Origin: Fidelibacterota bacterium
GTDB lineage: Bacteria; Fidelibacterota; UBA8477; JABMPR01
NCBI GenBank assembly: GCA_024278595.1
Contig: JAJRSW010000068.1
Span: forward strand, 1-64,000
Direction of reading: 5' to 3'
DNA: 64,000 nt
In this document: positions 47,577 through 59,035 of the stretch, piece by piece
Layout of the letters: each line of letters opens with the position of its first letter
Position numbering within the stretch: the stretch's first letter is position 1
Position numbers and translations under genes: made by a program
The notes under the pieces: model-generated
What the model was told of the DNA's origin: nothing
Database searches by the model: none
Seen by the model: the letters and a program-made list of their open reading frames with translations, nothing else

Positions 47577-48218
47577 TTATAAGTTATAGAAACTCCTGAC
47601 CAGTTCAACTGCCAGCGGTGCTGAGGGAGCATAAGCATCTGCTCCTATGGACTGGGAAAACTGCTGACTCACAGAGGCTCCCCCAATCATGATCCGGGTA
47701 TTATTAAGCTGACCAGAGCTTCGAAATAATTGCACCACTTCGCGCATATTGTTCATGGTTGATGACAATAAAGCTGAAAGACAGACAACAGCAGCCTGGT
47801 GCTCAGCAGTGGCATCCAGGAAGTGTTGAGCTGGAACATTGACCCCCAGATCGATCACTTCAAAACCGGCCCCTACCAACATGATGCGCACCAGGTTCTT
47901 GCCAATATCGTGCATGTCACCTTTTACAGTGCCAATGATAATAGTTTTCCTGCTAGAGCTGTCTGCATTTTGGATGAGAATGGGTTTCAGGATATCAATG
48001 GCTGTCTGCATGGCTTGAGCAGACATAAGGATCTGGGGCAGGAACATCTCATTGCGTTTAAACCGTTCACCGACCACTTCCATGCCGGGCAGGAGCTGAT
48101 CATCAAGGATTTGTTGTGCGGTGTGTCTCTGCTCCAGCAGGTGCTTAACAATTTTGGTGATTGACCCCACATTCCCCTGGATCACGGCCTGTTGGATGCT
48201 CTGATTTGTCTTGATCAT
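47577..48218 (-). CDS. Corrinoid (B12)-binding methyltransferase subunit
   Basis: GTVKGDMHDIGKNLVRIMLVGAGFEVIDLGVNV (DxHxxG). Confidence 0.92.
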   Translation of the reverse strand: MIKTNQSIQQAVIQGNVGSITKIVKHLLEQRHTAQQILDDQLLPGMEVVGERFKRNEMFLPQILMSAQAMQTAIDILKPILIQNADSSSRKTIIIGTVKGDMHDIGKNLVRIMLVGAGFEVIDLGVNVPAQHFLDATAEHQAAVVCLSALLSSTMNNMREVVQLFRSSGQLNNTRIMIGGASVSQQFSQSIGADAYAPSAPLAVELVRSFYNL

Positions 48219-49274
48219 TTATAGTAATTCCTCGTGGGCAACAGCATACATGGCTTTTACATTCTCAGGTTTACAATAGGAAGCGACAACATTGCTGGTG
48301 CTCAAAATAAAACCACCACCCGTTCTGGCCTCCCGGATCAAATTACGGGTTGTTCCCTGCACCTCCTCCACGCTTCCATTGGCCAACAGGTCTACATCCA
48401 TATTACCCATGAATACCAGGTCGTTTCCATATTCCCGCTTCAGGCTGGGGATATCCATATTGGCGTTAGGGTCACATGATTGGAGGACATCAATACCGCA
48501 ATTGATCAGGTCAGGGATCAGGGAACGGAGATCACCATCTGAGTGAAAGAAGACCGGCAGACCGGTTTTTTTGATCGCTGTGATCATATTTTTCAGCAGC
48601 GGGAAATAGTCCTGACGCAAGTAGACCGGATCCACAAAAGGTCCGGTGTTGAAAGCCAGATCATCTGCGATCAGGACGGCATCGACACCCGCTTTTGCGC
48701 TCATCAAGGCCAGCTCCAAATTGGTCTGGATCAGTTTTTCATAGTAACCCTGCATGACGTCCGGGGCCTGAATGGTCCACATCATAAAGCGCTCAAATCC
48801 AAGCAGCTCATAACCAAGATCAAATCCAGCATTCAGGGTGGCCATCACAAAGAGATCTGTTTCCATTTTCCAGCGTTTCAGCAGGGAGTTATCAAAGTTA
48901 TGGACCAGGGGTGCTTGCCATTGATCAAGGGTTACAGGTGTGTCGGCGATCGGTTCTACCAGTTGAACCGTAGCATCGGGCGGCTGGGTGTAGGTGGCAC
49001 CCCAGAAATCGCGAAATAGTGGCGTTCCCCAATCGTCATGCGTACCCAGAAGCTCATTCGCTGGTCCGGTTACCCGGGCACCAACGATATCCGCTCCCAG
49101 CTTTTGCCGGATCCTCAGATGGTTTTGAAAACTGGCATCTCCACCGGTTTCATAAGTATTGCCCAGGATCGCCTGGACAATGCTATCGGTATAACCCCCG
49201 CCGATCTCACCGATGGGAACTCGGGAAGTTTCCTGCCGAGACAGGGCGGCCAAAACACGTTCTCTACCAGTCAT
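48219..49274 (-). CDS. Uroporphyrinogen decarboxylase-family (MtaA/CmuA-like) methyltransferase
   Basis: MTGRERVLAALSRQETSRVPIGE..., PVFFHSDGDLRSLIPDLINCGIDVLQSCDPNANMD. Confidence 0.88.
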   Translation of the reverse strand: MTGRERVLAALSRQETSRVPIGEIGGGYTDSIVQAILGNTYETGGDASFQNHLRIRQKLGADIVGARVTGPANELLGTHDDWGTPLFRDFWGATYTQPPDATVQLVEPIADTPVTLDQWQAPLVHNFDNSLLKRWKMETDLFVMATLNAGFDLGYELLGFERFMMWTIQAPDVMQGYYEKLIQTNLELALMSAKAGVDAVLIADDLAFNTGPFVDPVYLRQDYFPLLKNMITAIKKTGLPVFFHSDGDLRSLIPDLINCGIDVLQSCDPNANMDIPSLKREYGNDLVFMGNMDVDLLANGSVEEVQGTTRNLIREARTGGGFILSTSNVVASYCKPENVKAMYAVAHEELL

Positions 49275-49748
49275 GGAAGCAAACTAATCAGTGTCTGTCT
49301 TTAAAATCATTAAATCTCTATAAATTCTTTACCATCAAGCGATTCTGCCCATTGAATTCTGTGTTCCTGATTAAGATGGTACCGGTGTCCTCAAAAAACG
49401 AAATTTCAGCATCCTGCTGAGCACTAGGCTGATCTAAGCACGTGATAAAAATAGACTCACCGACTAGCTTAAGCCACGAAAACCAACAACCAGGCTAACT
49501 CGAAATGGAACCATCAATACAGGAGTTTTCAGCTTATGCGGAACCGTATAAATCCTCCTGATAAAATGACAATTACTGGTAAAGTGTTAGTTTCAGAGGG
49601 ATTAGGGAGATTTAAAAATATTGCTTATGCGCCAAAAACGCCGCCTATCCAAAATCAGGCGGAACCGTATATATATTGTTATAGAGAAAATCAAGCTTGA
49701 TAGTAAATAAAAGGTTATGTTGTGAGTATAAGTGAGCATTAGCAGAGT

Positions 49749-50972
49749 ATGCTGAAACAATCTAAACTATCGAATTATTATTCGGGTACCCACATGACAA
49801 TTATCGTTCGTCTTATTCTCATTTGCTCTTTATCTGGATATTCACAACATTTTGACAGAATACCGAATATTAGTAGGCAGATTGTGCATTTTGAAGATAA
49901 TGCATATGAAATATTTGCTTCGGATTTAATATTTGGCTCTCCAGATAAGTCAGGGTTGCAGCAACCAATATATAGAATTGAGTCATTTCAAGATTATTCG
50001 AATCGAGTAGTTGATATCGAATCAGGATTTGTGTTGAATTCCTATCGGTCTGATGGATTTATTCTCTATTCAAGATTTGCGAAATATTGGGCATCAAATC
50101 ATCCTGAGACCCCTGAATACAGCATCATTTCGGGTGTTGGTAAAGAGGGACCAATAGATTTTCACAAATCTGATATTTTAGTTGAAGGTGAATTATTCTT
50201 CATAAGTGAAATGGGAGAACAGTATCTCACCATCTATTCTAGTCAAACACTTAACTGTTTTTCACTCTCCGGGCAGCTATTGTGGTCTTTCAGGTATTCT
50301 TATGGTGACATTAGCTCTGATGAAATGTTTCTAAGTTCTGATGAATCGATACTTGTTATCAACAATCCAGGGAAAAGAGTGATAGCAATTGATATGAACA
50401 CTGGAAGGAAGAAATGGCAACGAGATGGGCGATATAGTGCAACGTCCGTTCCTTTTCAATTGAGTCCACTAACGGTTCTCTTTGACCAGCTATTTGAAAG
50501 TGCATTAATTTTGGATCGGAATGGTCAACAACTATTTGACTTAAATAAATGGCAGAATATCCAGAGGGAATTTTTCATAAATGATAAACAGCTAGTGACT
50601 GATAACTTAGTTATTCCAAATCTGCGTTATGAAGAGAATAGAGTAATTCTGCCAAAAAGATTAGCATCAAATCGATCATTCAAACCTGTAACACCAACAA
50701 GATGGTCAACAAAAGGAAAATATTCCGCCAGTGTCTTTGCATATTTAAAAAATGTTGAGCCACCGGACTCAGTTGCCTTAGAGGAGTACAGGATAGATAT
50801 TGTTTCAGCTGATGGAAAATCTATGGGGTTTTTCTATCCACGAATAAGATCAAAATTGGATCACTCAAAAATCAACGTCCAGGTATCCGATGATGGAACA
50901 AAGATTCTGTTTATCGGGAAGCAGGAAAATGGTGTTCAGTTTATTTGTAGAGAATACGAGATTTCGCTCTAA
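49749..50972 (+). CDS. Exported beta-propeller-like protein of unknown function
   Basis: Signal-like MTIIVRLILICSLSGYSQ (likely start 49794); PQQ/WD-like IAIDMNTGRKKWQRDGRY. Confidence 0.6.
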   Translation: MLKQSKLSNYYSGTHMTIIVRLILICSLSGYSQHFDRIPNISRQIVHFEDNAYEIFASDLIFGSPDKSGLQQPIYRIESFQDYSNRVVDIESGFVLNSYRSDGFILYSRFAKYWASNHPETPEYSIISGVGKEGPIDFHKSDILVEGELFFISEMGEQYLTIYSSQTLNCFSLSGQLLWSFRYSYGDISSDEMFLSSDESILVINNPGKRVIAIDMNTGRKKWQRDGRYSATSVPFQLSPLTVLFDQLFESALILDRNGQQLFDLNKWQNIQREFFINDKQLVTDNLVIPNLRYEENRVILPKRLASNRSFKPVTPTRWSTKGKYSASVFAYLKNVEPPDSVALEEYRIDIVSADGKSMGFFYPRIRSKLDHSKINVQVSDDGTKILFIGKQENGVQFICREYEISL

Positions 50973-51063
50973 CACCTTTTAAAAGTTATAAGTCAATAGT
51001 TAAAAAGAGTCTTACTCAATAAGAATCATTGATCCGTTTTTCTCAATTTTAGAACAACTACTA
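50971..51063 (+). repeat. Repeat family RF2, copy R1
   Basis: taacaccttttaaaagttataagtcaatagttaaaaagagtc...tctcaattttagaacaactact; matches 54275-54303 + 54520-54587 and 55736-55814. Confidence 0.8.
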
Positions 51064-51094
51064 AACCCCGTCAGCAAGTCGGAGGATAAAACTG

Positions 51095-51368
51095 TGGATC
51101 AAGTATAACCGACATTTGCCTGGGCGTCAGTTTTTCAAAGGGCTTAATGCTCGACTGATCGGGCATTACAACTACTATGGAATAGTTGGTAAATATGGAG
51201 CTATTGTTTTGGGCTATTGAAGGTTCTTTCAAATGGCTTAATCGTAGAGGTGGCCAGAAAAATAGTTTCAATTGGGACAAGTTTATTCGTATTCTCGACT
51301 ATGTTAGAGTTACGCGTCCACGGATCACTGAAGCTTGGCGTAGCAATACCGTTGCTTACCAGAATTGA
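51095..51368 (+). pseudogene. Group II intron maturase C-terminal remnant (frameshifted)
   Basis: WIKYNRHLPGRQFFKGLNARLIGHYNYYGIVGKYGAIVL then, in another frame, AIEGSFKWLNRRGGQKNSFNWDKFIRILDYVRVTRPRITEAW. Confidence 0.88.
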
Positions 51369-51474
51369 CTTGCGCGAAAGCGAGTACGACTGAGCCGTGA
51401 GGAACCGGATCAGGGAAAACTGCACGTCCGGGACTGTGCAGGGGGCGCTGGGTAACCAGCGTTCCTACCGCGAG
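51369..51474 (+). mobile_element. 3' end of a group II intron (domain V/VI region)
   Basis: ACTGAGCCGTGAGGAACCGGATCAGGGAAAACTGCACGTCCGGGACTGTGCAGGGGG follows the maturase remnant and folds as CCGGA.CAG..AAAA..CTG.TCCGG. Confidence 0.75.
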
Positions 51475-51539
51475 ATACGCATAAATAATATAATTATAAT
51501 TAACAGTAGCTGTGCATTAAAATATTGGATATTGTAACA

Positions 51540-51881
51540 ATGGATATTACATTCGCTGATAAGAAATTAAAAAAATATGCAAATGATAATAAGGCGGCGA
51601 TCAAAAAACTAGGCAACAAACGTGCTGGAATTTTCCAAACTAGATTAGAAGATATGGCCGATACGGATAGTTTTGCTGATTTGGAACATTTGCCGGGTCG
51701 TTTTCATCAATTGAAAGAGGATAGAGCAGATCAATGGGCATGCGATTTAGACCATCCCAAGCGACTATTATTTAAGCCTGGCGAGGATCCAATTCCAAAA
51801 AACAAAGATGGACGACAATTGCTTGCTGAAATTAAAACCGTAGAGATATTAGAAATAAACAATTACCACAAAAAGGGATAA
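51540..51881 (+). CDS. HigB/RelE-like toxin
   Basis: MDITFADKKLKKYANDNKAAIKKLGNKRAGIFQTRLEDMADTDSFADLEHLPGRFHQLKEDRADQWACDLDHPKRLLF. Confidence 0.85.
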   Translation: MDITFADKKLKKYANDNKAAIKKLGNKRAGIFQTRLEDMADTDSFADLEHLPGRFHQLKEDRADQWACDLDHPKRLLFKPGEDPIPKNKDGRQLLAEIKTVEILEINNYHKKG

Positions 51882-51884
51882 ACG

Positions 51885-52979
51885 ATGGCCACTTTAAACG
51901 AATATTATCCTGAAGAAGTTCTCCACCCGGGTCACACTTTAAATGAAAAATTAAGTGAGCTTGGAATGAGTAAAAAAGAATTTGCCTTGAGAACCGGTAA
52001 GCCTGAGAAGACGATTATAGCAGTTCTTCAAGGTTCGAGTTCAATAACGCCAGAGATGGCAATATTATTTGAAAATGTGACAAAAATCCCAGCGCACTTT
52101 TGGATTAATAAACAATCTCGGTACAATGAATTCAAGGCAAGAAAGCAGAGAAAACTTGCTGTAGTGGAAGCAGAATCATGGGCAAGAAAGTTTCCCTACC
52201 CAGAGATGGCAAAACATGGTTGGGTACCTCAGACAAGGAAAATTGAAGAGAAAACAATATACTTATTTGAATATTTTGCCATTTCAACGCACCAAGCATG
52301 GGATAGCCTATATATTGAACGGCAACTTAAAGTCGCTGCATATGCTTCTCTAAAGCATACTCTGGAACCTCAAGCAATCTCTGCTTGGCTCCGTCAAGGT
52401 GAGTTACAAGCCCAGGGTTGTTCTTGTCCAGTGTTTGACAAAAAGAAACTTAGATTGATTATCGAACCTCTGAAATCAATAATGGCAACCCACTCTACAG
52501 ATTTTTTCAAGAAAATTCAAAAGCTCTGTTTGGAGTGTGGTGTAAAGGTTTTCTTTACCCCTAAGTTACCAAAGGTCCCGATAAATGGGTCTACCCGTTG
52601 GATTAAAGATACGCCAGTAATTCAAATGACTGCACGGTACAGGCAAAACGACCGTTTTTGGTTTACATTTTTTCATGAGGTTGGTCATATACTTCTTCAC
52701 GGGAAGAAATATATTTCATTAGAAGGGATTGATTTCTCTGAATCAGACCCTCTCAAAGAACAAGAAGCTCATGCGTTTGCTGAAGAGGTTACATTCTCCC
52801 AAAAAGCAGAAAAAGAAATGTTATCAAACAAGCATATTGATGAAAACCTTATCCTCGAATATGCACAAAGGTATAACACGCATCCTGCACTAATAATTGG
52901 AAGGCTACAGCACAAACGTTTAATTCCTTATTCAGTCGGACATCAATTTATTGAACCAATCGACCTATCAGGTAATTGA
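51885..52979 (+). CDS. HigA-like antitoxin fused to ImmA/IrrE metallopeptidase domain
   Basis: HTH: HPGHTLNEKLSELGMSKKEFALRTGKPEKTI; C-terminal FFHEVGHILLHGKK (HExxH). Confidence 0.9.
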   Translation: MATLNEYYPEEVLHPGHTLNEKLSELGMSKKEFALRTGKPEKTIIAVLQGSSSITPEMAILFENVTKIPAHFWINKQSRYNEFKARKQRKLAVVEAESWARKFPYPEMAKHGWVPQTRKIEEKTIYLFEYFAISTHQAWDSLYIERQLKVAAYASLKHTLEPQAISAWLRQGELQAQGCSCPVFDKKKLRLIIEPLKSIMATHSTDFFKKIQKLCLECGVKVFFTPKLPKVPINGSTRWIKDTPVIQMTARYRQNDRFWFTFFHEVGHILLHGKKYISLEGIDFSESDPLKEQEAHAFAEEVTFSQKAEKEMLSNKHIDENLILEYAQRYNTHPALIIGRLQHKRLIPYSVGHQFIEPIDLSGN

Positions 52980-53012
52980 CCTCCCCAGTTTCTGGCAGTG
53001 TATAACAATATT

Positions 53013-53078
53013 AGGATAGACATGACCCCAAGACGAGTCTGAGCATCAAAAAAGCAGGGTTGGGGTCATGTCTATCCT
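53013..53078. repeat. Palindromic REP/IS-end-like element
   Basis: 19-bp perfect inverted repeat AGGATAGACATGACCCCAA (53013-53031) / TTGGGGTCATGTCTATCCT (53060-53078). Confidence 0.85.
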
Positions 53079-53473
53079 GCTGTTCGATAAGGCGCGGTGG
53101 CTATCAGGGGCTTGGTTGTGGGGCTGAGGTTTATAAAGTGGGTTTTTTTAGATTTCAAGCAGCTTTAATCCACCGGTTTAGCTGCTAAACTGCTCAGTTC
53201 AATTATACGTTGGTACCAATACTGAGTGGTTTTTGTCTCTTTTGTCATAATGCGTCTCTTTGGATTGTGTTTTTCCGGCACCATGCGGGAAATGGAAACG
53301 TATATTATTGGATCATGGTCGTCAATCGAAACCGCAGAATTGCTTTTCCGCTGCGGAGCGGCTTACTTGAACAGACACTTCCACCTGACTTGAACGGTGA
53401 TTGTTCTATGAATATGAATAGAAACGACACAAATTTAATAATTTACGGCCACGTAGGTTAAGCAGAGGGGTAT

Positions 53474-53653
53474 TAGCCTGAATAATTCATAGCCACTAAG
53501 TCACGAAGGCACAAAGTTCTAAAATATATATGCTTATCAAAATTTATCACTCACAGATGCAAATAATTCTGTTTATAATGACCTTGTTCATAACTTTAAT
53601 AATATTCGTGGTTTAGGGTCTTTGTGGCAATAACTCATGAATAATGCAGGTTA
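53474..53653 (+). mobile_element. Full-length RF1 element (MITE-like)
   Basis: Ends TAGCCTGAATAATTCATAG / CTCATGAATAATGCAGGTTA form imperfect TIRs; repeated at 1-140 and 57163-57326. Confidence 0.75.
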
Positions 53654-53742
53654 GGTAAACATTAAATATTCTATTGGAATACACAGTGTTCTTTTGTATT
53701 CTTATGTTGTACTTGTGAAGAATCTAATATATGAGGTGAATT

Positions 53743-53981
53743 ATGTCTAAAACTGTAACTCTTCGATTAAAAGAAGACACATATTTAAAATTTCAGAAAC
53801 TAGCAAAACAGGACAATCGACCACTATCAAATTTATTGAAACTGCAGCACTTAGATTCATCGATGATTCAGAATATATCGATAGTTTTGAAATGAGTGAA
53901 ATTCAGCAAAATGAAGAATTAAATGCCAGCATCAATCGTGGTCAGAATGATGCCAAATCTGAAAGAGGTCGTTTTGTCTGA
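53743..53981 (+). pseudogene. RHH/CopG-type antitoxin with a single frameshift
   Basis: MSKTVTLRLKEDTYLKFQKLAKQDNRPLS then, after a -1 shift near 53830, KFIETAALRFIDDSEYIDSFEMSEIQQNEELNASINRGQNDAKSERGRFV*. Confidence 0.8.
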
Positions 53982-54255
53982 GTTTCGAATTTATGAAACA
54001 GATGAATTTATTAAAAAACTTAGTAAAATGTCACCCACCGATGCATCACGCATGCAGAGAAAATTGAAGTCATACGTGTATCCACAATTAAAACAAGATC
54101 CTTTCTGGGGTGCAAATATCAAAAAGTTGAGAGACTACAAACCAAGTACCTGGAGATATAGATTTAATAAGTTCAGGCTCTTTTATACTGTGGATATTGA
54201 CGAGCGTATTGTTTTTATCTTGACCATCGATTTTAGAAAGAATGCATATAGATAG
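53974..54255 (+). CDS. RelE/ParE-family toxin
   Basis: LSEFRIYETDEFIKKLSKM...YVYPQLKQDPFWGANIKKLRDYKPSTWRYRFNKFRLFYTVDIDERIVFILTIDFRKNAY; TTG start overlaps the antitoxin stop. Confidence 0.88.
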   Translation: MSEFRIYETDEFIKKLSKMSPTDASRMQRKLKSYVYPQLKQDPFWGANIKKLRDYKPSTWRYRFNKFRLFYTVDIDERIVFILTIDFRKNAYR

Positions 54256-54303
54256 CTGGTTAAAACTGTTGCCCAACACCTTTTAAAAGTTATAAGTCAA
54301 TAG

Positions 54304-54519
54304 TTGACGCCCCCGCAGAAAGTCCCTCTCGCAGAGCGTTGCATTGAGTCCTTCGACTGAGCTCAGGAACCGCCCTTCGACTGAGCTCAGGAACCGCCCT
54401 TCGAAATGACGCAAAATGGTGTTATTTATTGCTTTACGTGTATTCGTTGTAAGCAGTTGTATTTAAAGGTTATAGGGCATATTATGTGATTTTCTAAATA
54501 CTTTTTGCGAGCTCATCAA
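54304..54519. mobile_element. 216-bp MITE-like insertion with TAG target duplication
   Basis: TIRs TTGACGCCCCCGCAGAAAGT / ACTTTTTGCGAGCTCATCAA; TAG at 54301-54303 and 54520-54522; interrupts RF2 copy R2. Confidence 0.8.
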
Positions 54520-54584
54520 TAGTTAAAAAGAGTCCTGCTCAATAAAAATCGTTGATCCGTTTTTTCTCAATTTCAGAACAACTA

Positions 54585-54729
54585 CTGAAGCTTGGCGTAG
54601 CAATACCGTTGCTTACCAGAATTGACTTGCGCGAAAGCGAGTACAACTGAGCCGTGAGGAACCGGATCAGGGAAAACTGCATGTCCGGGACTGTGCGGGG
54701 GGCGCTGGGTAACCAGCGTTCCTACCGCG
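54585..54729 (+). mobile_element. Second group II intron 3'-end remnant
   Basis: Near-identical to 51328-51473 (ctgaagcttggcgtagcaataccg...gcgttcctaccgcg). Confidence 0.8.
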
Positions 54730-54815
54730 CGAGCCACACTTTACTTCTTGCCGAATCAAATACTTGCCAATCCCTATGAATAGAAGTACATTCAGGCATA
54801 CAGTAGGAGGTAACA

Positions 54816-55091
54816 ATGAATACAATTCCACCCATCATTCCAATCAGCGATCTACGTCAAGATGCAGCGGCAGTCCTGAAAAGTATTAAGAATTCAGATC
54901 AACCCGTGGTTATTACGCAGAGAGGACGTGCAGCTGCAATTATGTTAAGCGTTGAATCGTACGAGCAGAGTTTGCACGAAAAAGAGCTTCTCATGTTACT
55001 CGCAAAGGGCGAAAAGGAAATTGAGGTTGGCGAAGGATATGACCTGGAAACTATTCTCGCGGATGCAGATTCTATTCTATCGGCAAAATAA
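54816..55091 (+). CDS. Phd/YefM-family antitoxin
   Basis: IPISDLRQDAAAVLKSIKNSDQPVVITQRGRAAAIMLSVESYEQ. Confidence 0.92.
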   Translation: MNTIPPIIPISDLRQDAAAVLKSIKNSDQPVVITQRGRAAAIMLSVESYEQSLHEKELLMLLAKGEKEIEVGEGYDLETILADADSILSAK

Positions 55092-55381
55092 TGAAGATAA
55101 AGTTCACACCTTCAGCTAGAAGTATGTTTCTTGATGCGGTTCTTCACATAAAAAAGGAGAATCCTCAAGCAGCTACACGATTTAGGTCGAAAACAGACAG
55201 TGGACTAGTTCGATTAATTGAATTTCCTGAATCAGGTAAACGAGTTCAAGAATTTCCAGCTCTCGCATTTCGTGAAATATTGATTTCGCCTTTTCGCTTT
55301 TTTTATAAACCAAAAGCTGAAACAATTTGGATTATTGCTGTGTGGCACAGCGCACAACTTCCTAAGAGATCAACAAAATAA
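55091..55381 (+). CDS. ParE/RelE-family toxin
   Basis: MKIKFTPSARSMFLDAVLHIKKENPQAATRF...GKRVQEFPALAFREILISPFRFFYKPKAETIWIIAVWHSAQ; 1-bp overlap with antitoxin. Confidence 0.9.
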   Translation: MKIKFTPSARSMFLDAVLHIKKENPQAATRFRSKTDSGLVRLIEFPESGKRVQEFPALAFREILISPFRFFYKPKAETIWIIAVWHSAQLPKRSTK

Positions 55382-55429
55382 TTGGCTGACTTAGTGTCAA
55401 GGACATTCAGGAAAAACGGATCATGTGAT

Positions 55430-55693
55430 ATGTCACATTGGAATACTAGAGTTATCAGGAAGTATGATCAGAAAACGGATACAACTATTTTTGAAATGCA
55501 TGAAGTCCATTACGATGATAATAATCGAATCATAGCTTGGACTGAATCTTCTGTTGGACCCTTTGGTGAGACATTAGCGGAATTGAAAGAGGATATTAAA
55601 CATTTTCTAGAAGCAGTTCAAAAACCGATACTTCAGGAGAATTGTCATGAGGCTGGAGAAATCTTGGTTGAGGTAAAGGAATCTGAGCGATAA
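55430..55693 (+). CDS. Small conserved-looking protein downstream of the Phd/ParE pair
   Basis: MSHWNTRVIRKYDQKTDTTIFEMHEVHYDDNNRIIAWTESSVGPFGETLAELKEDIKHFLEAVQKPIL; internal ATG preferred. Confidence 0.65.
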   Translation: MSHWNTRVIRKYDQKTDTTIFEMHEVHYDDNNRIIAWTESSVGPFGETLAELKEDIKHFLEAVQKPILQENCHEAGEILVEVKESER

Positions 55694-55735
55694 TTTTCTA
55701 TTTTGCTTGTTCAATTGGAAGAAAAACCAGGTGGC

Positions 55736-55814
55736 TAACACCTTTAACAGGTTTCTAGTAATAGCTAAAAATAGTCCTACTCAATAAAAATAATTGCTCC
55801 GCTTTTTCTCAATT
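55736..55814 (+). repeat. Repeat family RF2, copy R3 (diverged)
   Basis: ctaacacctttaacaggtttctagtaatagctaaaaatagtcctactcaataaaaat...tttttctcaatt. Confidence 0.7.
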
Positions 55815-55956
55815 TTGACGCCCCCGCAAAAAGTATTTGGAAAAACACGGAATATACCTATGTGTAATAAATACAGTTATTTATGATAAATACACCTAAA
55901 CCTATAAATAACAACGCTCTGCGCTCTGCGAGAGGGACTTTCTGTGGAGGCGTCAA
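55815..55956. mobile_element. 142-bp MITE-like element, same family as 54304-54519
   Basis: TTGACGCCCCCGCAAAAAGT ... ACTTTCTGTGGAGGCGTCAA; shares CCCTCTCGCAGAGCG and CAAATACTTTTTGCG blocks with the 54304 copy in opposite orientation. Confidence 0.8.
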
Positions 55957-56018
55957 TATTCGTGTGCGAAGCAGCTCAACTCAGTGTGAGAGGCAGGAAA
56001 GAAAGGATTTCAAAATAA

Positions 56019-56879
56019 ATGTGGCTAAAGATATCTATATTGGCACCTATATCGCTCATCGTCCTAATATCGGGAGCAGTCATCTTTGGTGAGTTAAGTT
56101 GGAAAAGAAAAACCAATGCGCTGCAGGCCCAAATGCAGACTTCACGAATACCGATCACCACCACAACCTATGACGCAACCGAGATAGAATCTCTACCAGA
56201 ACCAGTGAAAAGGTACTTTCAGGCAGTGCTCAAAGATGGGCAAAAAATAATCACCTCTGCGCATTTTTCCCATGAGGGAGAATTCCGAATAAATGAATCG
56301 GAGGATCGCTGGATTCCCTTCACTTCTATCCAGACCTCAATCACACATCCTGCTGGCTTTGTTTGGGATGCGCGTATGCGTATGGCACCAGGTATAAATG
56401 CATTTGTGTATGATGCATACGTTGCTGGGGAAGGGCTATTGCATGCGGAAGCCATGGGCCTTATCACCGTTGCTGATGTGCGTGGTACGTCTGCCGCTGC
56501 ACAGGGTGAACTCTCTCGCTATTTCGCAGAAGCAGCGTGGTACCCAACAGCACTGTTACCCAGTCAGGGTGTTGAATGGGAAGAGATTGATGATTCAACT
56601 GCAAGGGCTAGTTTTACCGATGAAGAAACAACTGTTTTGTTAAAGTTCCATTTTGATTCAGCTAATTTAATATCAGAAGTAAAGGCTGAAGCACGTTATC
56701 ATGGGGATATAAATGGTATTCCTGAGTATTTACCGTGGGCCGGACGCTTTTGGGATTATGAGTTTCAATCTGGTATGCAGATTCCCCTGCAAGGTGAGGT
56801 CTCCTGGCAATTGCCTGAGGGACTATTGCCGTATTGGCGAGGGCGTATCAATGAAATTGACTACGAGTTCACTCAATAA
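56019..56879 (+). CDS. DUF6920/DUF6544-like protein
   Basis: LPEPVKRYFQAVLKDGQKIITSAHFSHEGEFRI...MGLITVADVRGTSAAAQGELSRYFAEAAWYPTALLPSQGVEWEEIDD. Confidence 0.75.
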   Translation: MWLKISILAPISLIVLISGAVIFGELSWKRKTNALQAQMQTSRIPITTTTYDATEIESLPEPVKRYFQAVLKDGQKIITSAHFSHEGEFRINESEDRWIPFTSIQTSITHPAGFVWDARMRMAPGINAFVYDAYVAGEGLLHAEAMGLITVADVRGTSAAAQGELSRYFAEAAWYPTALLPSQGVEWEEIDDSTARASFTDEETTVLLKFHFDSANLISEVKAEARYHGDINGIPEYLPWAGRFWDYEFQSGMQIPLQGEVSWQLPEGLLPYWRGRINEIDYEFTQ

Positions 56880-57162
56880 TGCGACTTGTTTAACAGTGAA
56901 ATTTCTGTCTGCCGCTTCGGACTCATCCCGACACTTCGGGTTTCCCTGCGGCGGGATCTACGACAAAAAAGCAGTGACGGGTCATTTCTAGTCTGCTGTT
57001 CGATAATACCCTACTCACTTCCCAATTAGCCCTAACTCCGGCATCTTTTCCATTTTCACTTCATCCCGGACAAGCCCAGATACTCTGGGTTTCTGAGGCG
57101 GGATGGATCTTGCCGGGATTTGTAAACCAGAAAAGTATTTTGAATTTAATATACTTTAGAGC

Positions 57163-57326
57163 TAACCTGAATAATTCATAGCCACTAAGTCACGAAGGCA
57201 CCAAGTTTTAAAAAATAGATGCTTAGCAAAAATTATCACTCACAGATGCCAATAATTCTGTTTAGAATGACCTTGTTAATAACTTTAATAATCTTCGTGG
57301 CAATAATTCATGAATAATGCAGGCTA
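57163..57326 (+). mobile_element. RF1 element copy
   Basis: TAACCTGAATAATTCATAG ... ATTCATGAATAATGCAGGCTA. Confidence 0.75.
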
Positions 57327-57601
57327 AATATGGTATGACTCATCACCAGGACTACCCATTTCAGACAAATCAATACTACATCAGGAGGCTACTCAGGTAC
57401 GGAATTTTCGTGTGTGCTAGACTGTGATTTTGAATCATTTATGAAAGTGGCCGCTCGATAAACAGCCAGGCTTATTCAATGTGGTGACTTCTCATTTAAT
57501 CTTCTTCCTCCCAGTATTCATTATGATTCATTAAATAAAATTGCCTGAAACCTTTCAAGATACTCGGCATTGAAAGGGATATAGAAATTGGAGAGATTTG
57601 C

Positions 57602-59035
57602 ATGAAAAGACATATACTACGATTTATCCCACTGCTAATTATTATCCTGCTTATACCTGCTCAGATACAGGCCTCTGATATCAGCGTGGCCAAAGCAGTG
57701 AGTAATGCCTTCGCAGATATAGCAGAACGCGTTTCCCCTTCCGTGGTCACCATCACCAGCGAGCACGTTTTTAAACATCCCGCAGCGGAACAGTTCAGAA
57801 GCTTTCAGGATATGTTTCCTGACCAGTTCAGACAATTTTTCCCGGAGGGGCAGCGTGAGTTGCGCAGCACTTCGCTGGGATCAGGCATCATTATCAGTCA
57901 AGATGGCTATATCATTACCAACAATCATGTGATTGAAAAAGGTGAAAATATAAAAGTACAATTTTCTGATAATACAGAAATGGATGCTGAGATCATCGGA
58001 AGTGATCCCAAAACTGATGTGGCTTTGATCAAGGTGGATGCTAAAGATCTTAAGCCCATAAAAATGGGCGACTCTGAAAAAATCCGGGTCGGGGAATGGG
58101 TGTTAGCTGTTGGCAGCCCGTTTTCCGGTAGCCTCTCCCAGACTGTAACCCAGGGTATTATCAGCGCTATAGGTCGTTCCGCCGTTGGCTTGGTTGATTA
58201 TGAAGATTTCATTCAAACCGATGCCGCTATTAATCCGGGAAATTCAGGGGGGCCCCTGGTCAATCTGGATGGCAAGTTGATCGGAATGAATTCGGCCATT
58301 GCTTCCCGGAGTGGAGGATCCCAGGGAATTGGATTCGCCATTCCCATCAATCTGATAAATCGCATCATCGAAGATCTGCGCGAAAATGGCCGGGTGACCC
58401 GCGCCTGGCTGGGAGTCTGGGTCCAGGAAGTAGACGGGACCATGGCAAAAACTCTGGGGATGAAAAATGCTCGCGGAGCCCTCGTGGGACAGGTTGTGGA
58501 AGATAGTCCTGCTGATAAAGCCGGTTTACATGAACTTGATGTCATCCTGGAGTTTGATGGCCATGAGGTTGAGAACAACCGCAGATTGCCCATCATCGTT
58601 TCCACCCAGCGCCCGGGAGATAAGAAGAAGATCAAGATATTGCGGGAAGGAAAGTTTAAAACCCTTACTGTAAAATTGGGTGAAATGCCTGAAGAGGCTA
58701 TTGCTGCCGGTCCCTATGAATTTGATGACTCCGATATTGGTATTACTGTGGAAACCGCCAGTGCTGAGAGACTTAAATACTATGGGTATTCCCGGGGGAC
58801 AAAGGGAGTTTTGGTGACCTCCGTGGACAACAACAGTGAGGCCTATAAAAAGAATATCCGGGTTGGGCAGCTGATCCAAAAGATGGGTCCGAATGTCCGC
58901 AACCTTGACAAAGTAGTTTCGCGGCAGGGCTTTGAAGCAGCGCTCAGCGATTATAGTGCTGATGACCCGATCCTACTATTGATCCGACGTGATGCAAACA
59001 GCACCTTCTTTGTGGCCTTGACCATTCCAGAATAA
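57602..59035 (+). CDS. degP: Do/DegP-family periplasmic serine protease with PDZ domains
   Basis: NNHVIEKGENIKVQF, DPKTDVALIKVDA, AAINPGNSGGPLVNLDGKLIGMNSAI, PDZ repeats. Confidence 0.95.
   Translation: MKRHILRFIPLLIIILLIPAQIQASDISVAKAVSNAFADIAERVSPSVVTITSEHVFKHPAAEQFRSFQDMFPDQFRQFFPEGQRELRSTSLGSGIIISQDGYIITNNHVIEKGENIKVQFSDNTEMDAEIIGSDPKTDVALIKVDAKDLKPIKMGDSEKIRVGEWVLAVGSPFSGSLSQTVTQGIISAIGRSAVGLVDYEDFIQTDAAINPGNSGGPLVNLDGKLIGMNSAIASRSGGSQGIGFAIPINLINRIIEDLRENGRVTRAWLGVWVQEVDGTMAKTLGMKNARGALVGQVVEDSPADKAGLHELDVILEFDGHEVENNRRLPIIVSTQRPGDKKKIKILREGKFKTLTVKLGEMPEEAIAAGPYEFDDSDIGITVETASAERLKYYGYSRGTKGVLVTSVDNNSEAYKKNIRVGQLIQKMGPNVRNLDKVVSRQGFEAALSDYSADDPILLLIRRDANSTFFVALTIPE

Follow-up and report, generated by a model that had tools for sequence, protein, structure and literature searches.

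The Insertion Locus

The window, a stretch of 64,000 bp, is contig C49 of the Fidelibacterota assembly G000 (3.26 Mb, 124 contigs), referred to below as the host genome. Within the window a geneless 216-bp element splits one copy (R2) of a repeat termed RF2, of which three copies lie within 5 kb and one more is found on contig C15. The locus comprises the following features:

50971-51480, + strand: RF2 copy R1, putative remnant (3' part) of a maturase gene from a group II intron, with the non-coding stretch after it
50986-51011, + strand: empty site within R1 (sequence read directly)
54275-54303, + strand: RF2 copy R2, 5' part, split by the MITE (RF2 search)
54301-54303, + strand: left target duplication TAG (R2 sequence, family comparison)
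54304-54519, + strand: MITE copy of 216 bp without a gene of its own (63 matches in the host genome)
54304-54323, + strand: left TIR TTGACGCCCCCGCAGAAAGT of the 216-bp MITE (TIR pattern)
54350-54404, + strand: 24-bp unit CCTTCGACTGAGCTCAGGAACCGC, 2.3 tandem copies inside the element
54500-54519, - strand: right TIR TTGATGAGCTCGCAAAAAGT of the 216-bp MITE (TIR pattern)
54520-54522, + strand: right target duplication TAG (R2 sequence, family comparison)
54520-54732, + strand: RF2 copy R2, 3' part, putative group II intron remnant with an internal deletion relative to R1
55735-55816, + strand: RF2 copy R3, empty at the studied site
55815-55956, - strand: second, 142-bp MITE of the family, located on the 3' edge of R3

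R2 reads TTATAAGTCAA-TAG-(216 bp)-TAG-TTAAAAAGAGTC, and in R1 the identical letters run uninterrupted from 50986 to 51011. The initial annotation had described a 216-bp element with TIRs of about 20 bp between two TAG trinucleotides in R2, which is borne out at 54304-54519, and an uninterrupted reading of R1, which is correct except that the coordinates given for it (50989-51012) were about 3 bp off. The ends form imperfect 20-bp TIRs with 15 of 20 matching positions. Since the element is flanked by a 9-bp direct repeat, TCAATAGTT (54297-54305 and 54516-54524), its boundary could be slid if R2 alone were considered. Comparison with the other members of the family settles the ends as TTGA...TCAA with TAG as a 3-bp duplication at R2, and rules out the direct repeat as a 9-bp target duplication.

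A search of the host genome with RF2 yielded four relevant copies, namely R1, R2, R3 and C15:2042-2135. The site is continuous in three of the four and the element is present in R2 only. R1 had previously been proposed as the pre-insertion form, with the presence of the 216 bp in further RF2 copies named as the finding that would turn R1 into a deletion; the R3 and C15 copies likewise lack the 216 bp. Because RF2 is intact in R1 and in two further copies, the comparison confirms the element at R2 as an insertion into what appears to be an old group II intron remnant, and not as a product of deletion elsewhere. The proposal is further supported by the many copies of the element and by a second repeat family that behaves alike (see below).

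The nature of RF2 was deduced from a 57-aa stretch of R1, which resembles a protein whose annotation reads group II intron maturase-specific domain (tblastn, 48.8% over 41 aa, E = 1e-6), and from the DNA after this stretch, which matches beside the same place as the maturase match (blastn). Based on these two matches RF2 is read as a decayed maturase gene of a group II intron, of which the 3' end is left. Searches of Pfam, NCBIfam and Rfam gave no match to RF2 or the 57-aa fragment. The R2 insertion lies between genes of toxin-antitoxin type, with a ParE-like gene at 53923-54255 and a Phd/YefM antitoxin together with a ParE-like toxin at 54816-55381.

The MITE Family

The initial annotation had proposed a genome-wide search for the ends of the element, and this search was positive: 135 TIR ends with at most two mismatches were detected in the host genome, compared to six for the reversed control pattern. 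The 216-bp element itself gave 63 matches. As many copies are situated at contig ends, their number is an estimate and amounts to roughly 60-70. Within the window the TIR pattern occurs at five sites (0.9 expected), of which two belong to the 216-bp element and two to the 142-bp copy at 55815-55956. The latter has TT and TA as flanks, which do not make a clean duplication, and no RF2 sequence continues beyond it.

Complete copies are 136 to 408 bp long. The interior 24-bp tandem unit is palindromic with modest folding (z -2.4), and broken BLAST pieces suggest that the number of units differs between copies. An Rfam scan of positions 48000-58000 gave no match. A simple-repeat array, AAGTTAAAAGTTAAAAGTCGAAAGTCGAAAGTC, is present near position 26116 of contig C45, and MITE copies on C23, C37, and C58 have like arrays in their flanks. 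The elements have TIRs and a target duplication, occur as many dispersed short copies without a transposase gene and have an empty site; an autonomous partner with matching ends was found in relatives, not in the host assembly. On these grounds the 216-bp element belongs to a real, multi-copy, non-autonomous MITE family, whose transposition we infer from sequence comparison of incomplete assemblies.

About 14 MITE copies of the host genome are inserted at one and the same position of a second repeat family, TACCAATT...TTCAAAATATTTTTCCGTTTATCAAAC / TTCAAG.... Four copies of this family, on C21, C73, C17, and C37, are empty and were read directly as continuous across that position. These filled and empty sites provide evidence independent of RF2. 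The second repeat family is itself MITE-like (TACCAATT...ATTGGTA) with inner tandem units GTGTGCCACACTGAGTTCATCGAA, represents a favoured landing site of the MITEs and occurs on C21, C73, C17, C37, C8, C42, C50, C85, and other contigs.

Target Site and Duplication

For evaluation of the target duplication the flanks of the copies were re-paired at random with 2000 shuffles per set. Among the 44 scorable copies of the host genome 28 agreed in the 2 bp on both sides (5.6 expected), as did 11 of 13 copies in related genomes (1.8 expected) and 43 of 71 copies elsewhere (5.7 expected); none of the 2000 shuffles reached these values in any of the three sets. Agreement over 3 bp was found for two of the 44 host copies, which is not significant alone, and for 10 of 71 copies elsewhere (1.7 expected). 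The duplication is therefore normally 2 bp, as judged from these flanks, and 3 bp represents a minority class to which R2 belongs. The TAG duplication postulated initially thus holds for R2 and does not hold as a rule for the family.

The flanks are enriched in AA and TT exactly at a spacer of two, with AA followed by NN on the left and NN followed by TT on the right. The resulting target consensus, TTCAA-NN-TTGAA, resembles the element's own ends placed against each other. As the individual left and right arms pair no better beyond the consensus than shuffled ones, what defines the target is its sequence, not an extended hairpin. A hairpin target of the IS1272 type, in which a stem-loop is replaced without duplication, was also rejected on the basis of the flanks, which are kept between R1 and R2. 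With TTGA...TCAA as its ends, the element gives filled junctions of TCAA-NN-TTGA, which have the form of the target. Copies abutting with a 2-bp spacer were found at C39:9852/9855, C84:50850/50853, and C41:29686 and also in the public loci L156 and L288.

An IS1182-Like Candidate Transposase

The potential partner was reached from public loci in which two TIRs face each other at a long distance; one of these loci (L202) carries a broken IS1182-like gene. The N-terminal part of its protein led to an intact relative of 543 aa in G240, a genome of the same genus as the host. The respective IS comprises 1910 bp with the ends TTGACGCCCCCGTAAAAAGT / TTGACGCCCTCGTAAAAAGT and occupies the very position of the second repeat family that is taken by MITEs in the host genome. 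Searches with the G240 protein detected further representatives within the phylum in G071 and G029 and as a contig-edge piece in G070. Among 50 other genomes reached via TIR matches, complete IS were found in G245 (two), G272, G285, and G288. All eight complete relatives (G240, G071, G029, G245 twice, G272, G285, and G288), which come from this phylum and from others, carry these TIRs at both ends. Several are flanked by duplications, namely TT and AG in G245, TT in G285, AA in G029, and ATCC in G288; no clean duplication is present in G240 (flanks TC / AT) or G071. G233 and G234 harbour two more distantly related IS1182-like elements, whose ends are different though related, and these genomes contain at most one TIR match each.

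The best NCBIfam match of the transposase is IS1182 (NF033551) with an E-value of 4e-49 over nearly the full model length; its domains are DUF772 and DDE. With 148-168 bits the score lies below the NCBIfam cut-off for IS1182 of 270 bits, so the enzyme is designated IS1182-like and not as an IS1182 member. The transposase search proposed initially therefore delivered a candidate in relatives, not in the host assembly: no relative was detected in the incomplete host genome, although closely related queries did match in other genomes, and none in the likewise incomplete assemblies of G238 and G241, both rich in MITE copies. At a threshold of 1e-20 the transposase was present in just seven of the 50 genomes reached through TIR matches. 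A search of viral contigs found none, and the sole relative on plasmids was a 35% match in Microvirga. Beyond the TIR the IS and the MITE have little in common, and for this reason the MITE is no simple internal deletion of an IS found here.

Distribution in Other Genomes

Four of 19 genomes of the genus are rich in TIR ends (at most one mismatch), namely G000 with 121, G238 with 182, G240 with 44, and G241 with 103 ends, while the remaining ones have four or fewer each. Outside the genus the exact TIR pattern was detected in G070 alone among 245 genomes of the phylum. This copy is a true MITE of 139 bp with AG on both sides, and G070 also has the IS1182-like transposase described above. In a scan of public genomes the matches listed were mainly from Desulfobacterota and also from Neomarinimicrobiota, Mariprofundaceae, Nitrospirae, SAR324, and others. 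Among these matches, related MITEs seem to be widespread in Desulfobacterota; scattered single matches may be due to chance. Scanning of viral contigs for the TIR pattern yielded 24 stretches.

Proposed Mechanism and Alternatives

Our preferred explanation, to which we assign a probability of about 0.85, is that the MITE was moved in trans by an IS1182-like DDE transposase at TTCAA-N2(N3)-TTGAA targets. The enzyme would recognize the common TIR (TTGAYG...CGYARAAAGT) of its IS and of the non-autonomous element, cut the element ends and join them to the target over a stagger of 2 bp, sometimes 3 bp, and the 2-3 bp of target would then be duplicated by repair. At R2 the target would have been CAA-TAG-TTA within the group II intron remnant. 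Owing to the element's ends, each insertion rebuilds TCAA-NN-TTGA on its two sides, and sites next to existing copies may thereby become favoured for further insertion. The sequences themselves show the polarity of insertion, the many copies, the duplication size, the preferred target, the abutting copies and the IS with matching ends, whereas the role of the IS1182-like enzyme as mover and the chemistry of cutting are deduced from them. The source of the enzyme was presumably lost from the host genome or is unassembled in it.

Another transposase using the same ends could have moved the MITE instead, which we consider improbable. Suitable examples would be two elements enclosed by inverted TIRs and a 2-bp duplication: an HTH plus DDE_Tnp_1 element at L216 (duplication TA) and an IS110 element at L161 (duplication CA). 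Both were sighted once, and no relatives of them were found at other TIR loci. At L216 (98-2535) the HTH and DDE transposase lies between inverted arms of about 90 bp carrying the MITE TIR. This is the arrangement expected if an IS had entered a hairpin-like MITE; the alternative is that the element itself makes use of these ends. L161 (2262-4088) derives from a proteobacterial MAG and has an IS110-family transposase gene between MITE-type ends, an arrangement that suggests insertion into a MITE. IS110 enzymes are not known to generate TIRs of this kind or staggered duplications, which argues against L161 as the mover.

A REP-like or structural RNA element could have spread otherwise, e.g., by TnpA_REP/RAYT or recombination, and the variable 24-bp palindromic tandem unit with its modest folding would be in line with this. 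The clear TIRs, the 2-bp duplications at a fixed target, the empty sites and the full-length IS with the same ends, together with the lack of an Rfam match near the element, render it very unlikely. Scarcely credible, finally, is an ancestral R2 from which R1 arose by precise excision. In principle the 216 bp could have been lost exactly by way of the direct repeats TCAATAGTT, but the diverged RF2 copies R3 and C15 at other loci are also without the 216 bp, so that several independent precise excisions would be needed, and the element family is present at many unrelated sites.

Comparison with Known Systems

The elements resemble bacterial MITEs in general (PMC10969869) in being short, geneless, bounded by TIRs and present in multiple copies with target duplications. 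IS1182 is not mentioned in this review of prokaryotic MITEs. In the literature searched on MITEs with IS1182, on Neomarinimicrobiota and on the TIR letters (subscription literature and ISfinder lay outside its scope), the family is not described and the TIR letters are not printed in the context of mobile elements. We regard this as a new and well-documented family among MITEs of known type, for which the evidence on the empty site, the target and the partner is unusually clear. It is a widespread MITE family of uncultured bacteria tied to a specific transposase group, for which exact ends, a target and built-in pre-insertion controls are now supplied.

With the IS1182 family (NF033551; IS1272, ISPse1) the partner shares the transposase match and an IS length near 1.9 kb. 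Palindromic targets were reported for this family, and IS1272 was described to replace stem-loops without duplication and without sequence preference (PMC5678879, PMC4923244); ISPse1 is listed with a 4-bp duplication (PMC3281130). In contrast to IS1272, the present family has a duplication of 2-3 bp and a sequence-specific TTCAA-NN-TTGAA target, and the flanks are kept. Whether this marks an IS1182-like branch with its MITEs in several phyla is in our view an even call. Such a branch would make 2-3 bp duplications in TTCAA-NN-TTGAA, the palindrome formed by its own end junction, and its insertions would recreate two targets and seed abutting copies, unlike the stem-loop replacement of IS1272. 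The data suggest that short target duplications of the ordinary kind, at a defined sequence, are within reach of an IS1182-like group, and they bring the question of how the IS1182 family chooses its targets into sharper focus.

Members of the IS30 family make duplications of 2-3 bp and insert beside their own ends. IS30 was dropped as a candidate mover, with one sub-threshold HTH_38 match in the host genome and none above the cut-off. The present MITEs are like the IS30 family in both the duplication and the insertion beside own ends and differ from it in that the partner found is IS1182-like.
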